Shown: positions 9,550 to 60,373 of the stretch, piece after piece
How positions within the stretch are numbered: position 1 is the stretch's first letter
Layout: the number at the start of each line of letters is the position of its first letter
NCBI GenBank assembly: GCA_032164245.1
Contig: JAVMKO010000004.1
Location: 30,915,626-30,979,625 of the forward strand
DNA from: Sternotherus odoratus
Taxonomy: Eukaryota > Chordata > Testudines > Kinosternidae
Length of the DNA: 64,000 bases
Direction: 5' to 3'
Made by a program: the position numbers and the translations under genes
Notes under the pieces: generated by a model
What the model was told of the DNA's origin: nothing
Seen by the model: only the letters and a program-made list of their open reading frames with translations
The model's database searches: none

Positions 9550-10064
9550 CAGTAAAACCTCCATTTAACGGACTAATTCGGGCGAGGGGGTGTCCGTTAA
9601 ATCAAAAAGTCCATTATTTAATAATAATAATAAAAAAACGAGCTGTCGGAGCAGAAGCCCGCCTGCCACAGGGTCGGGGCGGCAGCTCCGCAGCCCGCCC
9701 GTTGCTGGGACCCGGGTGGCAGCGGGGAGCCGTCAGCCAGCCCGCCCGGGTCCCGGCTGCTGGGACCTGGGCGGCAGCCGGGAACCGTCAGCCAGCCCGC
9801 CCGCTGGCGGGACTTGGGCGGGACCCGGCAGCCAGCCAGCCCACCCGCAGGTGGGACCCAGGTGGGAGCCGGGAGCCCACCCGCAGGCGGGAGACGGTCG
9901 GGAGACGGCAGCCAGCCCGCCCGCAGCTGGGAGCCGGGCGGGAGCCGGGAGCCGGCAGCCAGCCCGCGAGAAATGGATTTTGGATGCATCAGATTTGCTC
10001 AGAATTTTTGTCCGTTGCATCCGAAGTCCGTTAAATCGAGGTCTGTTAAATCGAGGGTTTACTG
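9550..10064. mobile_element. TA-flanked MITE (mariner/pogo type) with GC-rich interior
   Basis: The element starts CAGTAAAACCTCCATTTAAC and ends TTAAATCGAGGGTTTACTG, giving inverted termini. A TA dinucleotide flanks each end (9,548-9,549 and 10,065-10,066), as expected for Tc1/mariner/pogo insertion. Near the right end a subterminal motif GTTAAATCGAGG occurs twice. No transposase is present, so it is non-autonomous. The interior is a GC-rich minisatellite, in sharp contrast to the AT-rich flanks. Open frames inside are low-complexity Pro/Gly/Ala/Arg strings in several registers and are not genes. Confidence 0.85.
9660..9975. repeat. GC-rich minisatellite inside MITE
   Basis: Degenerate tandem units of roughly 40-50 bp repeat CAGCCAGCCCGCCCG followed by a CTGGGACCTGGGCGGCAGCC-type stretch. 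Unit length varies between copies, suggesting slippage or unequal exchange after the MITE formed. Confidence 0.75.
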
Positions 10065-10066
10065 TA

Positions 10067-10520
10067 TTCGATATCTTATTAATATAACCAACTAATTTCC
10101 TATATGCCAATGCCAAATGGATGTCTTTAAAAACTAACTGCACATGTCAGTAATAAAAATTGTCCTCATTTTTAATATTTTTCCAGAATTTTACTCTGCA
10201 GATTTATGGTTTAGAACAAAATGCAATAAAAATCCCTACTTCAAACAAAAAACACCAGGTTATTATTTTAAATTAAGAAACATATGGAGCCAAAGAATAT
10301 AATTTTGTCTGTAAATGATTAATTCATTGTAAGTACATGAACAAATATTCATTATCCTGCTCCCATTGAAATCAGTGTCAAAACCCTCATTGAGTTCAAT
10401 GGTATAGGATGAAGCTGGTAGTATCAAATGTCTCAGCTACTCATATATCAGACCTGTAGACTCTTAGAGAATCCATGTATGGGTTTCTATGGACGGTCTT
10501 TCTTCCTGACTTTTTGGACA
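10067..10520. other. Background between two MITEs
   Basis: No gene. Near 10,360-10,425 CCCATTGAAATCAGTG and CATTGAGTTCAATGG echo the palindromic relic motif seen elsewhere in the window. Confidence 0.5.
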
Positions 10521-10522
10521 TA

Positions 10523-11007
10523 CCGTATTTTTCGTCTTATAGGACGCTCCGGCCTATAAGACGCCCCCTCGTTTTTTAATAAAAAATCCGGACCAAAAAA
10601 AAAAAAAAAAGCGCCTCGCTCTCCCGTCCCCGCCGCGCGGGCGGGCTGCCGAGGTTCCCCCCTCCCCGCCGCGGGCGGGCTGCCGGGAGCGTCCCGGTTC
10701 CCCCCTCCCCGCCGCGGGCGGGCTGCCGGGAGCGTTCCTGGCAGCCTGCTCGCGGCGGGGAGGGGGAAACCGGGACGCTCCCGGCAGCCCGCCCGCGGCG
10801 AGGAGGGGGGAACCGGGACGCTCCCGGCAGCCCGCCCGCGGCGGGGAGGGGGGAACCTCGGCAGCCCGCCCGCGCGGCGGGGACGGGAGAGCGAGGCGCT
10901 TTTTTTTTTTTTTTTGCCCTATAAGACATTCGCCCTATAAGACGCACCAACTTTTTCCCCCCCGTTTTGGGGAAGAAAAAGTGCGTCTTATAGGGCGAAA
11001 AATACGG
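10523..11007. mobile_element. TA-flanked MITE (CCGTATTTTTCG termini) with giant hairpin
   Basis: The termini are CCGTATTTTTCG on the left and CGAAAAATACGG on the right, flanked by TA at 10,521-10,522 and 11,008-11,009. Subterminal motifs of the CTATAAGACGC type occur near both ends. No transposase is encoded. The middle is a long GC-rich inverted repeat bounded by 16 A on the left and 16 T on the right. I assign it to the TA-target (mariner-like) MITEs because of the TA duplication; the source family is not identified. Confidence 0.85.
10595..10915. repeat. Large GC-rich palindrome built of 43-bp units
   Basis: The left arm 10,595-10,727 and right arm 10,740-10,915 are reverse complements around a short GGGAGCGTTCCT loop. 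Each arm starts with a 16-base homopolymer (A on the left, T on the right) followed by GCGCCTCGCTCTCCCGTCCC. The arms consist of a 43-bp unit containing CCGCCGCGGGCGGGCTGCC; the right arm carries one more unit than the left. Arm identity is very high by eye. Confidence 0.9.
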
Positions 11008-11009
11008 TA

Positions 11010-12179
11010 TTCTTTTATTTTAACCATACTGTTAAAGATGGCTTTTACAGTGAGCCTTTCACAACAAATTTAATTTTTGTGGGAAATTGTGTTCGCTTTC
11101 TCTATTAAAATATGTTATTGTCATGTCTGCTAATGACCTTTATAGAACTGCTATACAGAGAGATCCTCAAGAGAATGGGTCTGATTCTCCACTGCCTTCA
11201 TTAACCCAGTTTCATATCAACGTTACTTTACTGCTATCAGTAGAGGTTAAAGCAGAGTAACTCTGGAAAATCAGATTGTTGTAAATGGTATCTCGTATTA
11301 TGTCTCCAATCGGATAATTGTAAATGATACTTTCCATTGAGTCTTGATCTGTGTATCAAAGGATCTACCCTTAACCCAATACTGTACAGTAGGAAGCAGA
11401 TAGGGATGCATGAAGTTACCTGATGGGCTTTGCAACCATTGGCTGCTGAGTTTTAGCTGTAGAGACTACACTGTATATAGGATTTAATGGGACAGAAAGA
11501 TAAAACAAGCAATTTGAAAACAAAAAAAAAAGTTTTAATATAATATTGAGACGTTTGCTAACAATCCTTCAACCAATACATTGAGTTCAAACTAAGGATT
11601 TAACATATTAGCCATATACACTCTTACTCTGTAATTTGCACTATAGCTCATTGATTGGCAAATGGGGCAGGAGTGGCTCTTAATTAAATTCATATGTGGT
11701 GCTACTGCTCTAAATTAGTGCCAAGTGACTGGGCTCAAGGTGGTGCATAAATTTCTTAAATACGGCTAACTCTCTTCCTAGAGTTAAATTAGTGACTGAG
11801 AAACATTAATCTAAGTAAACACTATATATCTTTTACAAATGACAGTTGATAATGAAGCTAGAAAGCCGCACAAAAGGTTTTTTCTTAATCATCTGACAAA
11901 GTGGAAATTTCTCATACTGTATGAGTCACTGTGAACAAGTAATATTTTGCACAGCAAACTACTAATTATATGAATAAGATTCTCCTCCTCACACTTCCCT
12001 TATGACAGTGATTAGGTAGCAATTTCATCTCTACAAATTCATATTAAATTGGATGAGAAATATAATTCCAATTTTAAAGCTACTGTTATAAATTTATCTG
12101 TCAGCCTTACAAGGTAAATTCTGCTTGATTTGACCTTTTTTTGCTTTGTAATTTATTTCACTCTGAAAAAAAGCAATCA
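11010..12179. other. AT-rich background
   Basis: No gene is visible. A relic with TCTGATTCTCCACTGCC and a weakly mirrored partner near 11,180-11,275 fits the old palindromic repeat family seen elsewhere in the window. Confidence 0.5.
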
Positions 12180-31734: not shown

Positions 31735-31930
31735 AGGATGGATGATTTTGAGATTATGCTATTGCTCTAAAATTTAGTAAATCTGGGTTCAGTTCTTGGC
31801 TAGATCATAGACTCTCCCAGTGACTTTAAGCATAGGATGTAATCTTTCTGTCTCAAGTCCACCTTTTGTAATTTTGGAGATTATAGTAGAGTACCTCTTC
31901 TTACGCTCTTTGTCTGCTATTTATATTGTA
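31735..31930 (+). repeat. CORE-SINE/MIR-like relic
   Basis: AAATCTGGGTTCAGTTCTTG (B-box-like), CCAGTGACTTTAAGCATAGG, TTTCTGTCTCAAGTCCACC and a TATATTGTAAGC tail follow a MIR-type SINE. It lies just left of the Harbinger insertion. Confidence 0.55.
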
Positions 31931-31981
31931 AGCTTTTGGGGGCTTCACTGGGTAGTAAGAGCAAGAAAAATTTTAAAATTA

Positions 31982-32000
31982 AGGGTATGTCTTCCCTACG
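31982..32000. repeat. Left terminal inverted repeat of Harbinger
   Basis: AGGGTATGTCTTCCCTACG pairs with the reverse complement of the right end, with two mismatches. Confidence 0.9.
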
Positions 32001-32130
32001 GCAGTAGGTCGATTTCCTTTAATTTGATTTTGTAAAGCAGACTGTATACAGTCGATTTTGTCCCCACTAAGCACAGCAAAGCACAGCAAGTCGACAGTGT
32101 CTGTCCGCACAACTTTTGCAAGCGTTGACA

Positions 32131-32297
32131 TAACGAGCGTTGCACTGTGGGTACTTATCCCACAGTCCCCGGATCCCCCAGCAAGCACCATTTAGAGTGC
32201 TGCACTATGGGTAGGCATTTCCAAATTTTGCGCCCTTTTTCCGCACCGCCGACCCCCATTACGAGCGGTGCACTGTGGGCAGGTATCCCATAATTCA
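32131..32297. repeat. Subterminal repeats of Harbinger (three copies)
   Basis: GCACTGTGGGTACTTATCCC, GCACTATGGGTAGGCATTTC and GCACTGTGGGCAGGTATCCC lie at about 32,141, 32,201 and 32,268, spaced 60-67 bp apart. A related GCATTGTGGGACAGCC sits near the right end (about 36,147). In this superfamily such repeats are candidate binding sites for the Myb-like protein or the transposase; that role is inferred. They also flank the transposase start and may lie in its promoter. Confidence 0.75.
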
Positions 32298-32339
32298 CGC
32301 CCTTTCTCCGCACTGCGCTAACGCCATAGCACTGCAAGC

Positions 32340-33659
32340 ATGGAGACCGCTGATGCCACGGCTGCAGTAATGGCCGCTGTGAGGACCTCGATCACGGTTG
32401 CGGATTTCATGCTGTACCATCTGCAGAGGAATGCGATCCGGGGACAACTGCGCTTTCTGGAACCCGACAACAGTCAGCAGGAGATGGACAAGGATGTGCA
32501 AAGCAGGGACAGGGACACTGATGTTTTTGGAAGTGGGGCGACTGACAATCTGTCTAATTTGATGGCAATGGGGCAGGCTCATGCCATCGAACGCCGATTC
32601 TGGGCCAGGGAAACAAGCACTGACTGGTGGGATCGCATAGTGCTGTGGGTCTGGGATGACTCCCAATGGCTCAGAAACTTCCGCATGCGAAAGGGCACCT
32701 TCATGGAACTTTGTGACTTGCTGTCCCTGGCCCTCCGGCGCGAGAATACCAGAATGAGGGTGGCCCTCACAGTTGAGAAGCGAGTGGCGATAGCCCTCTG
32801 GAAGCTTGCAACGCCAGACCGCTACCGGTCAGTTGCGAATCAGTTTGGGGTGGGTAGATCTACAGTGGGCTTTGCTGTGATGCAAGTAAGTAGAGCAATC
32901 GTCGAGCAGCTGCTACCCAGGGTTATAAACCTAGGAAACCTGCAAGCTACAATAGATGGCTTTGCCACCATGGGATTCCCTAACTGTGGTGGGGCTATAG
33001 ATGGGACTCATATCCCTATCCTGGCACCAGACTACGAGGCCGCCGAGTACAGAAACCGGAAGGGATATTACTCAATGGTCATGCAAGCAGTGGTTGACCA
33101 CAAGGGACGTTTCACCGACCTGTACGTGGGGTGGCTGGGAAAGCTTCATGGCGCTCGTGTATTCAGGAACTCTAGGATTTTTAGACAGCTGCAGCAAGGC
33201 ACTTTCTTCCCCGACCAGAAAATTTCAGTGGGGGGGGTGGTGGAAATGCCGATCGTTATCATTGGGGACCCAGCCTATCCCCTAATGCCCTGGCTTATGA
33301 AGCCCTACACAGGAGCCCTGGACAAGGGTCAGGAGCTGTTCAATTACAGGCTGAGCAAGTGCAGAATGGCCGTAGAGTGTGCATTTGGCCGTCTGAAGGG
33401 GAGATGGCGTTCGTTACTGATTCGCTCAGACATCAGCGAGAGAAATATCCCCATTGTTATTGCTGCTTGCTCTGTGCTCCACAATGTCTGTGAGAGCAAA
33501 GGGGAAACGTTTATGGTGGGCTGGGAGGCAGAGGCAAATTTACTGTCTGCTACTTACCAGCAGCCAGACAGCAGGGAAAGTAGAAGAGCGCACCAGGGTG
33601 TGCTGCGCCTCAGGGACGCCTTGAAAGACAGTTTTATGAGTGCCCGACATGGCGTTTGA
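32340..33659 (+). CDS. Harbinger DDE transposase (HARBI1-like), intact frame
   Basis: A single open frame of 439 codons encodes a PIF/Harbinger transposase of the DDE_Tnp_4 type, which cuts the element's ends and inserts it elsewhere in the nucleus. A helix-turn-helix-like region lies around residues 135-180 (ALWKLATPDRYRSVANQFGV). The RNase H-fold triad is visible: Asp221 in GGAIDGTHIP, Asp310 in IIGDPAYPLMPW and Glu346 in VECAFGRLKGRW. The length equals what I know of turtle copies. The ATG at 32,340 is in a GCAAGCATGG context, and the frame is uninterrupted to TGA. One conserved family position is altered: the GxxHD motif before the first long helix reads GKLHGAR, Asp to Gly. The related host protein HARBI1 is domesticated, but the termini around this copy show it belongs to a transposon. 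It could still make protein. Confidence 0.93.
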   Translation: METADATAAVMAAVRTSITVADFMLYHLQRNAIRGQLRFLEPDNSQQEMDKDVQSRDRDTDVFGSGATDNLSNLMAMGQAHAIERRFWARETSTDWWDRIVLWVWDDSQWLRNFRMRKGTFMELCDLLSLALRRENTRMRVALTVEKRVAIALWKLATPDRYRSVANQFGVGRSTVGFAVMQVSRAIVEQLLPRVINLGNLQATIDGFATMGFPNCGGAIDGTHIPILAPDYEAAEYRNRKGYYSMVMQAVVDHKGRFTDLYVGWLGKLHGARVFRNSRIFRQLQQGTFFPDQKISVGGVVEMPIVIIGDPAYPLMPWLMKPYTGALDKGQELFNYRLSKCRMAVECAFGRLKGRWRSLLIRSDISERNIPIVIAACSVLHNVCESKGETFMVGWEAEANLLSATYQQPDSRESRRAHQGVLRLRDALKDSFMSARHGV

Positions 33660-33738
33660 GAACCTGCTCCCTTGTTCTGCTCTAAGCCTGCTGTCCTTGC
33701 ACCCTCTTTCCCTCCCCTCTCCCCATGCTTGCAGAGGA

Positions 33739-33744
33739 AATAAA
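33739..33744 (+). promoter_or_regulatory. Poly(A) signal for the transposase
   Basis: AATAAA lies 80 bp after the transposase stop. The opposing minus-strand gene has its own AATAAA at 33,776-33,771, so the two transcripts would end tail to tail, overlapping by a few tens of bases. Confidence 0.75.
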
Positions 33745-33911
33745 TTCACTGTTTTAAAAATCATGGTTCCTTTATTGATTCATCAGAAATACAAATACAG
33801 GGGATCACTGTCATGGTAGCCTGGAGGGAAACCAGCAGTCGCACTGGGGGAGGACCAGACGGGGGGGGGGGGGAAGAGGGGAAAGGAGGGGGGGGCAAGA
33901 CACAGCAGCTT

Positions 33912-35919
33912 TTACAAGATTTCAGAGAACGTCAGCCTGCTGCTGCTTGTGCTGGGTTCTGGGGTGGAGTGGGTCGGTCCAAGGAGCTTGCCACCCCGGG
34001 TTCTCACCCCGCGTTTGGGTGGGGAAGCTATGGGACTTGGGGAGGGGGGGAGATGGTTACACAGGGGCTGCAGAGGTGATCTTTGGCCCTGCTCCACCAG
34101 AGAGCGCAGCATGTTGCTTTGGTCCTCCATTATACGAAGCAAAGCATCCATGCGTCTTTCTTCGCGATCCTGTCGCTGCAGCCACATTTCTTCCCTCTTT
34201 TCTGCTGTGGCTCTCGATTCCTGCCTTGACTGGATCAATCTTTCCCTCCATTCCGTTTGGCGGGCTGCCTCAGCGCGCGAGTTCTCCAGTAGTTCACTGA
34301 ACATATCATCGCGCGTTCGTGTTTTCTTTTTACGCTTTCGTATATGCGATGCTTGGCGGGAGGAGCAGGACGGGGGATTCTGAGATAATTGTTCATCTGT
34401 GGGCGAATGTGGGCAAAGAAAGTTTGAAAGTTATGAGACAGATACATTCAAGGTTATGAGACAGATGCAGTCTCGGACGGTACACAATGGGAGTACTATG
34501 CCATTTGCAACCTCAGTATTCAGAGGCCTGATATGATTTCTGTACAAGGTCATGTTCTACACTAAAAGTGACTGAATAGCTCACAGAAAGGTCAGAGCAT
34601 CTCAGACACATATGCGTGCCTCAGCCCAACACGGCTTCTGAAATCACCGTGCAGCCGGCCATGGTAAGTTAAAAGCAGCACTTGCATATTGTAGAGTAAC
34701 CCCACCCCCTTCCCCCCACCGCGTTGCTCCCACTGAACCGCAAACTGCAAAACAAAGCCCATAAATCTCTCGCTAACGGCTAAGGGCTGGTTGGGGCTCT
34801 TCAGCAGAGGCAAAACGCTTGCAGACTGTTCAGATTCCCTGCTAGCTACCTCTACGGGCTGGCGGAGAGGGGGGGCGGGTGAGTGTTTTGGGGGGGCGGT
34901 TGGTCGGTCTTCAGCAGAAAAGAGTACTTTGCAGCTGGGAATCTTTATCTCCCTACTAATTGTAGTCCATATTTCAAACAGGCAACCATGAATATCATCA
35001 CTTTGCTGAGAATTTCTCAGAGAGATAGAGAGCGCATGCTCCTTGCCTCCATGCAAAGCCCTGGTCCATTCACCGCAATGCTAGCCTGCTCAATGATACC
35101 AGACTACTTACTACTTTCGTGGCGTGGGATGGTCTCCTATCACGGGGGACCACATAAGGCGGCTCTCCCCAGAAATCTGCTGCGGAAGATTCATCGCTAC
35201 CTCCTGGATAGCTTCATTGAAATGTCCGTGGAGGACTTCCAGTCAATCCCAGAGTATATTGACAGACTCTTTGAGTAGAAACTGACCAGCAATGAAAGCA
35301 CGCTAAGTCCTTAGGGCAAGTTAACCATTAATAAATGCTTCCTTTAAAAAATCACGCGTCATGTAATCCCTTAAAAAAAACACTTACCCCCCTGGGAGGC
35401 TTGGGAGGGTGCTGGCTGCAGGGTGATAAACAGCTCCTGGCTGTCTGGTAACACGGTTTCTCCGCTGGCTTCCTGCTGCTCCGTGAAATTTCCCTCCTCC
35501 TCATTGTCGTCCTCAGCAGAATCAGTCTCGTCCCTGACGATTATCCCATCGGTGGAGTCCACGCAGACCGGTGTGATGGTGGTGGGGGCGCCCCCCATTA
35601 TCTGATTTAGTTCATTGTAGAACCGGCATGTCCGCGGCGCGCCCCCTGATCACTGATCACCGTTTGCCTCCTTGGCTTTCTGGAACGCTTGTCTCAGCTC
35701 CTTAATTTTCACGCGGCACTGCTGGGCTTCCCTGTTCTGGCCCCTTTCCAGCATGGCCTTGGAGACTCTGGCAAATGTGTTGGCATTCTGTTTGTTGTTG
35801 CAGAGTTCCAACATCACAGATTCCTCTCCCCAGATAGCAATGAGATCCAACACCTCACGAGTGGACCATGCTGGAGCTCTTCTCCTCTGACTGGTCTCCA
35901 GGGCAGCTGAACTCTGCAT
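33912..35919 (-). pseudogene. Harbinger Myb/SANT-like partner gene, two exons, one premature stop
   Basis: Exon 1 is 35,919-35,388 and exon 2 is 34,396-33,912. The donor (G before GTAAGTG) and acceptor (GCCCACAG) fit consensus, and joining keeps the frame, giving 338 codons plus stop. Residues about 12-90 form a Myb/SANT-like (trihelix) DNA-binding domain with AWSTREVLDLIAIWGEE and CRVKIKELRQAFQKAKEA. An acidic stretch follows (SAEDDNEEEGNF). Exon 2 holds a basic run (RKRKKKTRTRDDM) and a long charged, coiled-coil-like region rich in Arg and Glu. In this superfamily the Myb-like protein brings the transposase to the nucleus and to the element ends. Codon 90 (35,652-35,650) is TGA in frame; the frame is open on both sides, so a single change disabled it. 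An AATAAA lies downstream at 33,776-33,771 on the minus strand. Confidence 0.85.
34988..35278 (+). CDS. Possible third Harbinger protein, 96 residues, inside the partner gene's intron
   Basis: A plus-strand frame runs from ATG (GCAACCATGA context) to TAG and is followed by AATAAA at 35,330-35,335. It lies entirely in the 991-bp intron of the minus-strand Myb-like gene. Upstream a GTGAGT donor (34,879) and a TTTCAAACAG acceptor (34,981) could remove a 103-bp 5' UTR intron, placing the ATG six bases into the next exon. The protein has charged (ISQRDRERM), hydrophobic (MIPDYLLLSWRGM) and helical (LLRKIHRYLLDSF) parts, with no membrane segment or domain I recognise. A 154-codon frame on the other strand (35,056-34,592) overlaps part of it and is the competing reading, as is chance. 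Function unknown. Confidence 0.4.
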   Translation: MNIITLLRISQRDRERMLLASMQSPGPFTAMLACSMIPDYLLLSWRGMVSYHGGPHKAALPRNLLRKIHRYLLDSFIEMSVEDFQSIPEYIDRLFE

Positions 35920-46151: not shown

Positions 46152-46229
46152 CCTCTGATTAGGCTGACCATATTTCCTTGAGACAAAAACGGGACATTGG
46201 GATGGCAAAAACGGGACGGGGTTGGGGGG

Positions 46230-46430
46230 GGTCTCACCAGATGAAATCGGTGCAGTGGCTGCAGAACCTGGCCTGAGGGGCACTGGGGGGGGTGGTTGGG
46301 GGCTCTGGGGGGGCTCTAGGGGGGCTCTGGGCAGTCTGGGGGGGCTCTAGGTCCCAGGGGGGTCTCACCAGATGAAGTCAGTGCAGTGGCTGCAGAACGT
46401 GGGCTGAGGGGCGCTGGGGGGGCTCTAGGG
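46230..46430 (-). repeat. Two extra tandem copies of a PKC exon tail with splice donor
   Basis: In reverse, 46,400-46,361 reads QPTFCSHCTDFIW followed by a GTGAG donor; 46,273-46,231 reads FCSHCTDFIW followed by the same donor. Each is followed by a G/C-rich intron-like stretch (the plus strand reads GGGGGGGCTCTAGG). Both are cut short 5' of the exon tail, unlike the full copy at 46,439-46,606. They keep the canonical Phe-Ile-Trp end, which the full copy has lost. Confidence 0.8.
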
Positions 46431-46438
46431 GGGTCTCA

Positions 46439-46606
46439 CCGGATGAGGTCGGTGCAGTGGCTGCATAATGTGGGCTGCTTGCACAAGCGTGCGGTGACTT
46501 TGTGGCTCTTGACCACGTGGATCACCTTCTGGCGCAGCGCCCCCTTGCGACAGAACAGCGGCTTGGCCAGGCACTCCAGCTCGGTGGGTGAGGTGACCAG
46601 CGCCAT
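46439..46606 (-). pseudogene. PRKCG: Captured PRKCG (protein kinase C gamma) first coding exon inside a hAT element
   Basis: The minus strand reads 56 codons from ATG in a strong start context (GGGGCCATGG). It contains [13 protein letters not shown], then VKSHKVTAR and [18 protein letters not shown] is the classical PKC pseudosubstrate that keeps the kinase off, and [13 protein letters not shown] is typical of the gamma isoform. The start of the C1A zinc/diacylglycerol-binding domain follows, with ligands His35, Cys48 and Cys51 kept. The coding stretch runs into a splice donor (CCG then GTGAGACC) exactly where PKC first exons end, so the copy came from genomic DNA, not mRNA. Several residues differ from the family (Leu-Ile-Arg for Phe-Ile-Trp; Leu-Cys for Phe-Phe), suggesting decay. 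Without C1B, C2 or kinase domain it cannot be a kinase. The rest of the gene is absent. Confidence 0.87.
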
Positions 46607-46679
46607 GGCCCCACCTGGGCCCCCCAGCGCCGGGCGGGGGGGAGGTAGTGGGGGAACTGGGGGGGGATGGATGGAGGAA

Positions 46680-46970
46680 TAAGCAGAACAGGGATGGGGG
46701 ATGAAGAGGATGGAGGGAGAGAGAGAAGGGGGGATGAGGGATGAAGAGGATGGAGGGGATGGAGGGAGAGAAGGCAGGAAGGGAGAGGATGGATGGATGA
46801 GAGAAGAGATGGGGGTAGGGAGCAGGGGGGATGGAGGAGGCAAGGGACAGCGAGAAGGAGGGATGGAGAGAAGGGAGATGGAAGAGGAGGCAGTGGACGG
46901 AGGGAGAGAGAAGGGAGGAAGGAAGGGATGGAGGGATGGAGAAGGGGATAGAGAGAAGGGATGGAGGGAG
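46680..46970. repeat. Purine-rich tandem repeat block
   Basis: GGAGGGAGAG, GGATGGAG and GAAGGGATGG units repeat with periods of about 20-90 bp; a GAGGAGGCAG/GGACGGAGGG segment recurs at about 46,887 and 46,973. The plus strand is nearly all purine. Long open frames here (up to 298 codons on the minus strand) are low-complexity Ser/Pro/Leu strings and are not genes. Confidence 0.8.
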
Positions 46971-47380
46971 CGAGAGGAGGCAGCGGACGGAGGGAGAGAG
47001 CAGGGAGGAAGAGAGGGATGGAGAAGGGGGATGGAGAGAAGAGAGGGATGGAGAGAAGGAGTGAAGAAGGAGGAATAGTGAGAAGAGGAGGCAGCGGGCG
47101 GCAGGCTGAAGCCGACGGCGGAGCAGAGCTGTCTGGAGCCGCAGCCGGGGGCCGAGCGTGCCGGCGGGGGGGCCAGCAGCCCCCCCACCAGCGCGCTCGG
47201 CCCCCGGCTGCGGATCCGGACAGCTCCGCTCCGCCGTCGGCTTCAGCCCGCTGCCCGCTGCCTCCTTTTCTCTCCATTCCTCCTTCTTCCCTCCTTCTCT
47301 CCATCCCTCCCTTCTCTCCATCCCCCTTCTCCATCCCTCCCTTCCTCCCTGCTCTCTCCCTCCGTCCGCTGCCTCCTCTC
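46971..47380. repeat. Large palindrome inside hAT element
   Basis: The left arm 46,971-47,172 (purine-rich, then GCGGGCGGCAGGCTGAAGCC and CAGCCGGGGGCCGAGCG) is the reverse complement of 47,180-47,380 (CGCTCGGCCCCCGGCTG and GGCTTCAGCCCGCTGCCCGC, then pyrimidine-rich). The turn lies at CCAGCAG, 47,173-47,179. Identity is about nine in ten by eye. The arms are some 200 bp, so it could fold into a cruciform. Confidence 0.85.
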
Positions 47381-47381
47381 C

Positions 47382-47611
47382 CTACCTAAGGACTAGTACC
47401 CTGTTTCCCCGAAAGTAAGACATCCCCCGAAAATAAGACGTACTTCCAGTTTTGCCTCTCGCTGTAATATAATGTAATGTAATTTTGGGAGCAAAAATTA
47501 ATATAAGACACTGTCTTATTTTCGGGGAAACACGGTATCAGATGTCAAAATCTCCGATGAGCGCAGTTTGCTCATCGGAGATTTTGACATCTGATACTTG
47601 TCCTTAGGTAG
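47382..47611. repeat. Second hairpin, 42-bp arms, split by a MITE
   Basis: The right arm 47,570-47,611 mirrors 47,382-47,398 joined to 47,538-47,562 once the MITE and one TA are removed. Arms read CTACCTAAGGAC on the outside and TCTCCGATGAGC on the inside, around a GCAGTTT loop. Only one mismatch is visible. Confidence 0.92.
47399..47535. mobile_element. TA-inserting MITE (CCCTGTTTCCCCGAAA type), 137 bp
   Basis: The left end CCCTGTTTCCCCGAAAGTAAG and right end TTATTTTCGGGGAAACACGG are inverted over about 24 bases. TA flanks it at 47,397-47,398 and 47,536-47,537. The target TA lies in one arm of a perfect hairpin, and removing MITE plus one TA restores the hairpin. A mariner-type non-autonomous element. 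Confidence 0.92.
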
Positions 47612-47799
47612 CAAGATTCTTCACCTGAGCTCTTGCGAGTCCTGCAAAGAAAGAACCTCCCCCTAGAAAGCAGCTTGGGACCTGCCCCAAAAACGGGACA
47701 AAATTGATATTTTTGTCAAAAAGACGGGACGGTCCAAAAATATGTAAAAAACGGGACTGTCCCGTTCAAAACGGGACGTATGGTCAGCCTACCTCTGAT

Positions 47800-58087: not shown

Positions 58088-59212
58088 TTCATAGAATCAT
58101 AGAATATCAGGGTTGGAAGGGACCTCAGGAGGCCATCTAGTCCAACCCCCTGCTCAAAGTAGGACCAATCCCCAATTAAATTATCCCATCCAGGGCTTTG
58201 TCAAGCCTGACCCTAAAAACCTCTAAGGAAGGAGATTCTACCTCCCTAAGTAACCCATCCCAGTGCTTCACCACCTTCCTAGTGACTTTTTTCCCCTAAT
58301 ATCCAACCTAAACCTCTCCTACTGGAACTTGAGACCATTTCTCCTTGTTCTGTCATCCAGTACCTTTGTGAACAGTCTAGATCCATCCTCTTTGGAACCC
58401 CCTTTCATGTAGTTGAAAGCAGCTATCAAATCCCCTCTCATTCTTCTCTTCTGCAGACTAAACAATTCCAGTTCCCTCAGCCTCTCCTCATAAGTCATGT
58501 GCTCCAACTCCCTAATCATTTTTGTTTTCCCTCTCCTGGACTCTTTCCAATTTTTCCACATCCTTCTTGTAGTGTGGGGCCCAAAACTGGACACAGTACT
58601 CCAGATGAGGCCTCACCAATCCCAAATAGAGGGGAATGATCATGTCCCTTGATCTGCTGGAAATACCCCTACTTATACAACCCCAAATGCCGTTAACCTT
58701 CTTGGCAACAAGGGCACACTGTTGACTAATATCCAGCTTCTTGCCCACTGTAACTCCTGGGTCCTTTTCTGCAGAACTGCTGCCTAGCCATTCGGTCCCT
58801 AGTCTGTAGCAGTGCATGGGATTCTTCAGTCTTAAGTGCAGGAATCTGCACTTATCCTTGTTGAACCTCATCAGATTTCTTTTGGCCCAATCCTCTAACA
58901 TGTCTATGTCCCTCTTTATTCTATCCCTATCCTCCAGTGTATCTACCACTCCTCCCAGTGTAGTGTCATCTGCAAACTTGATGAGGGTGCAGTCCACACC
59001 ATCCTCCAGAACAGTAATGAAGATATTGAACAGAACCGATACTTGGAGCAGTTCACTTGATACCAGCTGCCAACTAGACATGGAGCCATTGAGACTGCCC
59101 ATTGAGCCTGACACCTAGCAACCTTGTAGTCCATTCATCCAGCCCATACTTCTTTAACTTGCTGGCAAGAATACTGTGGGAGACCATATCAAAAGCTTTG
59201 CTAAAGTCAAGG
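58088..59212 (-). mobile_element. CR1 LINE, 5'-truncated, with RT C-terminal part and 3' end
   Basis: Read in reverse, the copy covers about 1.1 kb: the last part of the reverse transcriptase, the 3' end of the frame, and the tail ATTCTATGATTCTATGA typical of CR1. The 5' truncation is near 59,212 (AGCTTTGCTAAAGTCAAGG). There is no target duplication, as usual for CR1. It is less diverged than the CR1 pieces at 18,195 or 51,310 and belongs to the same subfamily as 49,811-49,920. Confidence 0.92.
58319..59114 (-). pseudogene. CR1 reverse transcriptase C-terminal fragment, frameshifted
   Basis: The 59,114-58,512 frame shows FADDTTLGGVVDTLEDRDRI, where FADD is the RT catalytic Asp-Asp box, then [39 protein letters not shown] and VEKLERVQ, all familiar in CR1 RTs. 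The frame shifts near 58,520-58,590 and continues in another register as [20 protein letters not shown] to 58,319. The N-terminal RT and endonuclease are missing. It is truncated, not able to move itself, and represents the best-preserved LINE protein text in the window. Confidence 0.88.

Positions 59213-60373
<1,161 letters not shown>

Follow-up and report, generated by a model that had tools for sequence, protein, structure and literature searches.

We analysed a 64,000-nucleotide stretch of the genome of the turtle Sternotherus odoratus (assembly GCA_032164245.1, contig JAVMKO010000004.1, positions 30,915,626 to 30,979,625 of the forward strand), referred to below as the window. At 46160..47791 it contains a complete inverted-repeat DNA transposon that carries, on the minus strand, the first coding exon of the protein kinase C (PKC) gene PRKCG together with its splice donor. 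Very probably, this element belongs to a large, recently active family of non-autonomous hAT-type elements, of the kind termed multicopy Pack-TIRs, in which PRKCG exon 1 was captured at the DNA level, amplified in trans and carried along as a passenger. The parts of the element and its flanks are listed here by window position.

46152..46159, no strand: left target site duplication CCTCTGAT, identical to the right flank
46160..47791, no strand: complete non-autonomous element, putatively hAT-type, 1,632 bp
46160..46172: left terminal inverted repeat TAGGCTGACCATA, 13 bp, perfect reverse complement of the right one
46160..46223: left terminal block, 64 bp, common to PRKCG-free relatives; the capture junction follows directly
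46232..46280 (limits approximate), minus: tandem partial copy 1 of the exon 3′ end, PQARFCSHCTDFIW, then a donor
46363..46411 (limits approximate), minus: tandem partial copy 2 of the exon 3′ end, PQPTFCSHCTDFIW, then a donor
46434..46439 (46439 down to 46434), minus: retained PRKCG exon 1 splice donor GTGAGA, also present in other copies
46606 down to 46440, minus: captured PRKCG coding exon 1, decayed; 167 nt, phase 2 (55 codons plus two bases)
46607..46660, minus: GC-rich stretch immediately 5′ of the ATG
46660..47173: purine-rich tract and GC-rich core; the left arm of a foldback starts at 46965
47179..47387: right arm of the inverted repeat, 209 nt, 92% complementary to 46965-47173
47399..47535: nested 137-bp miniature inverted-repeat transposable element (MITE), ends CCCTGTTTCCCCGAAA / TTTCGGGGAAACACGG, TA duplication; empty site in copies L002-L008
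47535..47597: subterminal palindrome with perfect 28-nt arms
47682..47791: right terminal block, containing CGGGAC repeats; conserved over a matched length of 69-104 bp in relatives
47779..47791: right terminal inverted repeat TATGGTCAGCCTA, 13 bp, perfect reverse complement of the left one
47792..47799, no strand: right target site duplication CCTCTGAT, identical to the left flank

The element is 59% G+C, compared with 40% for the whole window. An earlier sequence-only reading had placed an element with inverted termini and 8-bp flanks at these coordinates, with a minus-strand exon that has a strong ATG context and runs into a donor, and all of this was confirmed; the start context in the window copy is GGGGCCATGG. 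That reading had also described a stretch of 56 codons, and the exon does lie where it was placed, however the 56th codon borrows the first base of the donor. Both partial copies of the exon 3′ end sit between the full exon and the left terminus, each with its own donor and with FCSHCTDFIW still readable. Upstream of the ATG, the GC-rich stretch is probably captured PRKCG 5′ untranslated region (UTR), and the right half of the element is a foldback of the purine-rich and GC-rich block. The nested MITE is absent from all 7 other copies that were aligned. No match to Rfam was found at the gathering threshold in the whole window.

Copies of the composite in the turtle genome

Searching the host genome with the element gave 3,775 first-look candidates, of which 40 were scored and examined. 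Both termini are present in 37 of these 40 copies, the complete ones measuring 1,192-1,877 bp, and the exon lies between the termini in all 37; that it occurs in all 40 is partly by construction, because the query included it. Flanking 8-bp duplications are exact in 30 of the 37 two-ended copies, differ by one mismatch in 4 and are unmatched in 3, with no two of the 34 matching duplications alike. The window element recurs in the genome apart from its one nested insertion. Counts of short diagnostic sequences point to a far larger family: a 33-mer from the exon, allowing up to 3 mismatches, has 870 places in the genome (441 and 429 by strand), and a 36-mer from the 5′ end has 3,001 (1,530 and 1,471), with no matches to the reversed control in either case.

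A second set of copies came from a protein search with residues 1-290 of human PRKCG, for which 135 places were scored and 30 loci examined. All but four of the 135 places span roughly residues 15-58, i.e. exon 1. The 30 loci comprise 29 exon-1 copies and one C2-domain exon, and the element 5′ end accompanies the exon in 29 of 29 copies. Twenty-five copies were assembled to both ends; the duplications agree to within one mismatch in 22 of them, and the exon lies between the termini in 24. The remaining copy, L063, has a misassigned 3′ end; the total of 25 includes it, and the distance and junction analyses leave it out.

Since the composite shows different target duplications from copy to copy, it has moved as one unit many times: PRKCG exon 1 and its donor transposed together between the terminal blocks. 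The sequence-only reading had suggested counting copies that share termini and exon, and had named an exon outside the element boundaries or a chimeric assembly as outcomes that would overturn it. It holds up on these points, with 870 near-matches to the exon, two ends in 37 of 40 copies, the exon inside the termini in every two-ended copy of the first set (37/37) and a structure that recurs with 34 different target duplications.

Two copies on C9, L026 and L027, lie about 6 kb apart in opposite orientation with different target duplications. They differ by 8 mismatches over 1,858 aligned bases, plus indels, and the pair looks like a recent local insertion.

Source of the captured exon

The 56 residues read from the window copy match residues 20-58 of PKC beta (E 2.1e-15). 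Pfam assigned no family to them, half a C1 domain presumably being too short for this. The consensus of the less decayed exon, from 29 copies, is identical at 56 of 56 residues to the start of a Natator depressus protein (P0205) that has C1 and C2 domains and, unnamed in its record, is PRKCG by content, and it is identical at 55 of 56 to Pelodiscus sinensis PRKCG (P0085). When full-length protein matches were scored on residues 1-60, the first alpha- or beta-named protein stood at rank 34 and every isoform name above it was gamma (best 120 of 970 matches). PKC alpha and beta diverge from the exon in the pseudosubstrate region. Both the N-terminus and the pseudosubstrate are of gamma rather than alpha or beta type. 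The PRKCG identity proposed from the letters of the window is therefore borne out by these two turtle proteins.

The native PRKCG exons from C1B onward are on C43. A gap of 200 N at C43:2,694,018-2,694,217 (in L072) lies about 1.4 kb upstream of the native C1B exon.

One protein outside turtles was considered as a possible element copy and rejected. The gecko protein P0001 (Sphaerodactylus townsendi), a predicted 79 aa in which PRKCG exon 1 is joined to unrelated sequence, has an N-terminus of squamate type like that of P0087, and the fusion is probably a gene-model artefact.

Capture junction, subfamilies and decay

The junction between the left block and the exon is the same in 61 of 61 elements examined. 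Tolerating point changes and differences in the length of the G-run, GGGGTT in these is followed by a G-run and TCTCACC, the donor in reverse. In the simplest copies (L055, L060, L062, L069) only the G-run separates the left block from the donor of the full exon. PRKCG-free elements, among them L076, L077 and L083, have GGGGTT and then ATGTAATATTC, and the left block in the PRKCG-free relatives continues ATGTAATATTCTG. Because the left block continues differently in these relatives, the left breakpoint can be placed at GGGGTT.

The window copy belongs to a subfamily that differs from the less decayed, turtle-like sequence by E31V, F37V, F41L, F42C, F47L, F54L and W56R, and two synonymous changes separate the decayed and less decayed consensuses. 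Intermediate exon states are held by L014, L016, L018 and L028. The right half is different in L014 and L016 (distance 0.16-0.18) and in L043 and L065 (0.29-0.30), and for that reason the distances of these four copies are not ages. Outside CpG, the median distance to the consensus is 0.012 for 34 copies, a set without L014, L016 and L031, and 0.019 for 24 copies, a set that includes two outliers with a different right half. These low values suggest that both bursts were recent.

Relatives that carry a GRK exon or neither exon

A further 26 places (6 + 20) were fetched where the 5′ end matches exactly and an exact copy of the exon 33-mer is absent from the neighbourhood; all are on C1, and the sample is not random. 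PRKCG sequence is nevertheless present in 11 of them, six with a full exon that misses the exact 33-mer and five with the exon end only, leaving 15 of 26 without it. Eight places carry a different exon, from a GRK-type kinase, in full (L077, L078, L084, L085, L091, L094, L098) or in part (L080), and the other seven have neither exon.

Like the PRKCG exon, the GRK exon is read from the minus strand, its donor facing the left terminus. In L077 it reads MELENIVANTVLLKARE and is followed by GGTGGGG, a candidate donor; the GRK exon 42-mer is CTTGAGCAGCACGGTGTTGGCGACGATGTTCTCCAGCTCCAT. In PDB, the 20-residue peptide from L077 matches GRK5 and GRK6 without a difference (E 3e-6), with GRK4 weaker, and the same 17 residues recur in L085 and L098, with two or three changes in the other four full copies. 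Judged by this peptide, the source appears to be a GRK4/5/6-type kinase, and the match fits GRK5 and GRK6 equally.

An exact 8-bp target duplication flanks L078 and one with a single mismatch flanks L077, and the whole of L077 is 60% G+C. What L076, L077 and L078 have in common with the PRKCG type is limited to 61-64 bp on the left and 69-104 bp on the right. As only the terminal blocks are shared, the same blocks frame two host first exons, each with a start codon and a donor (a candidate donor for GRK). Some relatives with the same ends carry a GRK4/5/6-type first coding exon in place of that of PRKCG.

At one other locus, L075, the same 5′ block is followed by unrelated sequence with long minus-strand open frames.

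Passenger DNA or functional exon

Across the 40 copies of the first set, the exon has accumulated 90 nonsynonymous and 40 synonymous changes against an opportunity of 487:185; without three divergent copies the counts are 77 and 34. This count covers only the 40 copies found by DNA similarity, themselves the best matches to the window. The changes are near neutral, and the exon is therefore most likely passenger DNA. Frames are well kept: in the first set 0 of 40 exons have indels and 2 of 40 a stop, and gaps occur in 2 of the 29 second-set exons (L059, L067). For the 29 less decayed copies, the good state of the frames partly reflects how they were selected, because it was protein similarity to PRKCG that brought them up. 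When proteins of about 147-469 aa were searched for the decayed exon, only two came up, both of native type.

The sequence-only reading had raised the idea that an expressed copy could make a peptide of the pseudosubstrate and half of C1A. This idea finds no support here, since changes in the exon have accumulated at a roughly neutral rate across the family. A related explanation, that the exon is under selection because this peptide is made or because the exon is donated to host genes, is in our view quite unlikely. It would account for the start codon, donor and frame being retained in most copies (no indels in 40/40, no stop in 38/40), and for a window lineage in which six of seven nonsynonymous changes are at aromatic residues and the first zinc ligands persist, as does most of the pseudosubstrate; transcribed Pack-TIRs have also been reported by Tan et al. 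(PMC8277862). Set against this are the near-neutral changes within the family (90:40 vs 487:185) and the youth of the copies, for which intact frames are expected and among which 2 of 29 second-set exons are nonetheless gapped, as well as the native type of the only two proteins found in the decayed-exon search.

Origin of the family and rival explanations

The best reading of these results is a parasitic, non-autonomous family that is moved in trans and carries exons as passengers. We hypothesize that a stretch of turtle PRKCG was copied once, at the DNA level, into a pre-existing element, most likely through a template switch in the course of replication or repair. The composite would then have been amplified by a transposase that acts in trans and needs only the terminal blocks. 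Drift after capture would have duplicated the exon 3′ end in tandem and exchanged the right half between lineages, and the window lineage would have lost six of seven aromatic residues. The captured start codon and donor would give rise to at most occasional chimeric transcripts.

Several observations sit less comfortably with this reading. Capture may have taken place in several steps. On the window lineage, six of the seven nonsynonymous changes fall in aromatic codons, and 7 of the 56 codons are aromatic; a post hoc binomial, with no CpG weighting, gives about 5e-5. These losses are not predicted by plain drift, and we record them as unexplained; they leave the peptide reading a low probability. 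Matching duplications are missing in 3 of 37 copies of the first set and 3 of 25 of the second. No PRKCG exon 1-3 motif was found on C43 in the sequence read, which reaches about 17 kb upstream, and the native exon 1 may be among the exon-1 matches of the protein search beyond the 29 inspected.

Other origins for the composite have to be weighed against capture at the DNA level. A processed PRKCG transcript reverse-transcribed into the element would fit a short fragment with few intron bases after the exon in the simplest copies, however the GTGAG donor is retained directly 3′ of the exon, exon 2 is not joined to it and GC-rich sequence extends upstream of the ATG, which makes retroduplication highly improbable. 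An assembly chimera, or a segmental duplication of the native PRKCG locus, might be suspected where the native region is gapped in the assembly. We regard this as practically negligible: exon matches are dispersed in their hundreds, and 34 of 37 copies in the first set and 22 of 25 in the second have distinct 8-bp duplications right at the termini. A bolder proposal than passenger DNA, and one that we consider very unlikely, is that the same terminal blocks form a serial carrier that repeatedly took up GC-rich kinase first exons, PRKCG and GRK at least, each with its start codon and a donor towards the same terminus, scattering probably more than 1,000 exons by extrapolation; the window-lineage peptide would be made, and selection would have removed the aromatic surface from the half-C1A and spared the pseudosubstrate.

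The superfamily raises a separate question. Duplications of 8 bp and short termini of the TAGG type are typical of hAT elements, and P and Merlin are other superfamilies with 8-bp duplications. In this family, 8-bp duplications occur in 34 of 37 first-set and 22 of 25 second-set copies and the terminal inverted repeats are short, a perfect 13 bp in the window copy; these two features suggest a hAT-type element. As the assignment was tested by duplication length and short termini only, an element of another superfamily with 8-bp duplications, P or Merlin, is an alternative, and we consider that quite unlikely, given also that 208 of 370 animal Pack-TIRs were attributed to hAT by Tan et al. (PMC8277862).

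Other features of the window

The window holds several further repeats and transposon remnants. An open frame of 435 aa at 32352-33659 (plus strand) matches DDE_Tnp_4 (PF13359, E 5.9e-33) and is a transposase of PIF/Harbinger type, with a further open frame adjoining it at 33912-34430 (minus strand); no obvious long terminal repeats were seen in 31800-35300. Two inverted-repeat elements with long GC-rich tandem interiors lie at 9550-10064 (ends CAGTAAAACCTC / GGTTTACTG) and 10520-11010 (ends ATACCGTATTTTTCG / CGAAAAATACGGTAT), and these may also carry foreign GC-rich DNA. An RVT_1 fragment at 58512-59114 (minus strand), at 28.4 bits against a curated cut-off of 29.6, is a degraded retroelement remnant, and a pure AT dinucleotide run of 117 bp occupies 59829-59945.

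Classification and comparison with known systems

A classical MITE is a few hundred bp long, AT-rich and without gene content. The copies described here, at 1,192-1,877 bp, with 59% G+C in the window copy and an exon inside, do not fit the MITE label of the sequence-only reading, and Pack-type non-autonomous element is the better name. The comparison to Pack-type elements made in that same reading is upheld, as three features of a multicopy Pack-TIR are present: host gene sequence between both termini (37 of 37 copies, with the source protein matched at 56 of 56 residues), repeated movement with distinct duplications (34 of 37, at most 1 mismatch), and relatives with the same ends without the captured piece (L076, L077, L078; 15 of 26 places).

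The family has uses beyond its own history. PRKCG copies, GRK relatives, exon-free relatives and intermediate stages form a series from which the course of capture, amplification and decay can be followed. With its scattered start codons and donors, the family is a large natural test of whether host genes ever recruit such sequences as new first exons. There is a warning for annotation as well, in that PRKCG-like N-terminal matches in such a genome will mostly be transposon copies.

Rice Pack-MULEs are non-autonomous inverted-repeat elements that carry gene fragments with a GC-rich bias, and the turtle family resembles them in all of these respects; unlike it, they belong to the Mutator superfamily and to plants. 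It is well established for plants that DNA transposons with inverted repeats take up fragments of host genes and multiply them, and a survey of such events in animals appeared in 2021 (PMC8277862). That survey reports 370 Pack-TIRs in 100 animal genomes, 208 of them hAT and four multicopy (three in frogs, one in an alligator), with multicopy cases tending towards capture of GC-rich regions (Tan et al. 2021, PMC8277862). Among the matches listed in titles and abstracts of the open-licence literature, none described a PRKCG or other PKC exon in a transposon, and 'PRKC' is absent from the main text of PMC8277862.

The closest described case is Pack-hAT-N8_XT of the western clawed frog, in which the CAPSL 5′ UTR within hAT-N8_XT is present in three dispersed copies (PMC8277862). 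As in that case, hAT-type termini surround a host gene fragment and distinct duplications show repeated transposition; in contrast to three copies of a 5′ UTR, the turtle family has 870 exon matches, a coding first exon with its donor, and a second kinase exon in its relatives. In scale, it is closer to a hAT transposon of Pseudocercospora fijiensis that amplified histone H3 sequence to hundreds of copies (PMC6710886). Both amplified captured host coding sequence to such numbers, however that element is fungal and carries histone gene sequence, whereas a first exon with its donor was taken up here. Turmoil-1 of C. elegans is likewise an animal DNA transposon with transduplicated protein-coding pieces (PMC2572040), but its pieces lie in the terminal repeats, and both element and host are different. 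This type of capture is thus already known, and what is unusual in the turtle family is its scale in a vertebrate, the first coding exon captured with its donor, and the second kinase exon between the same ends.

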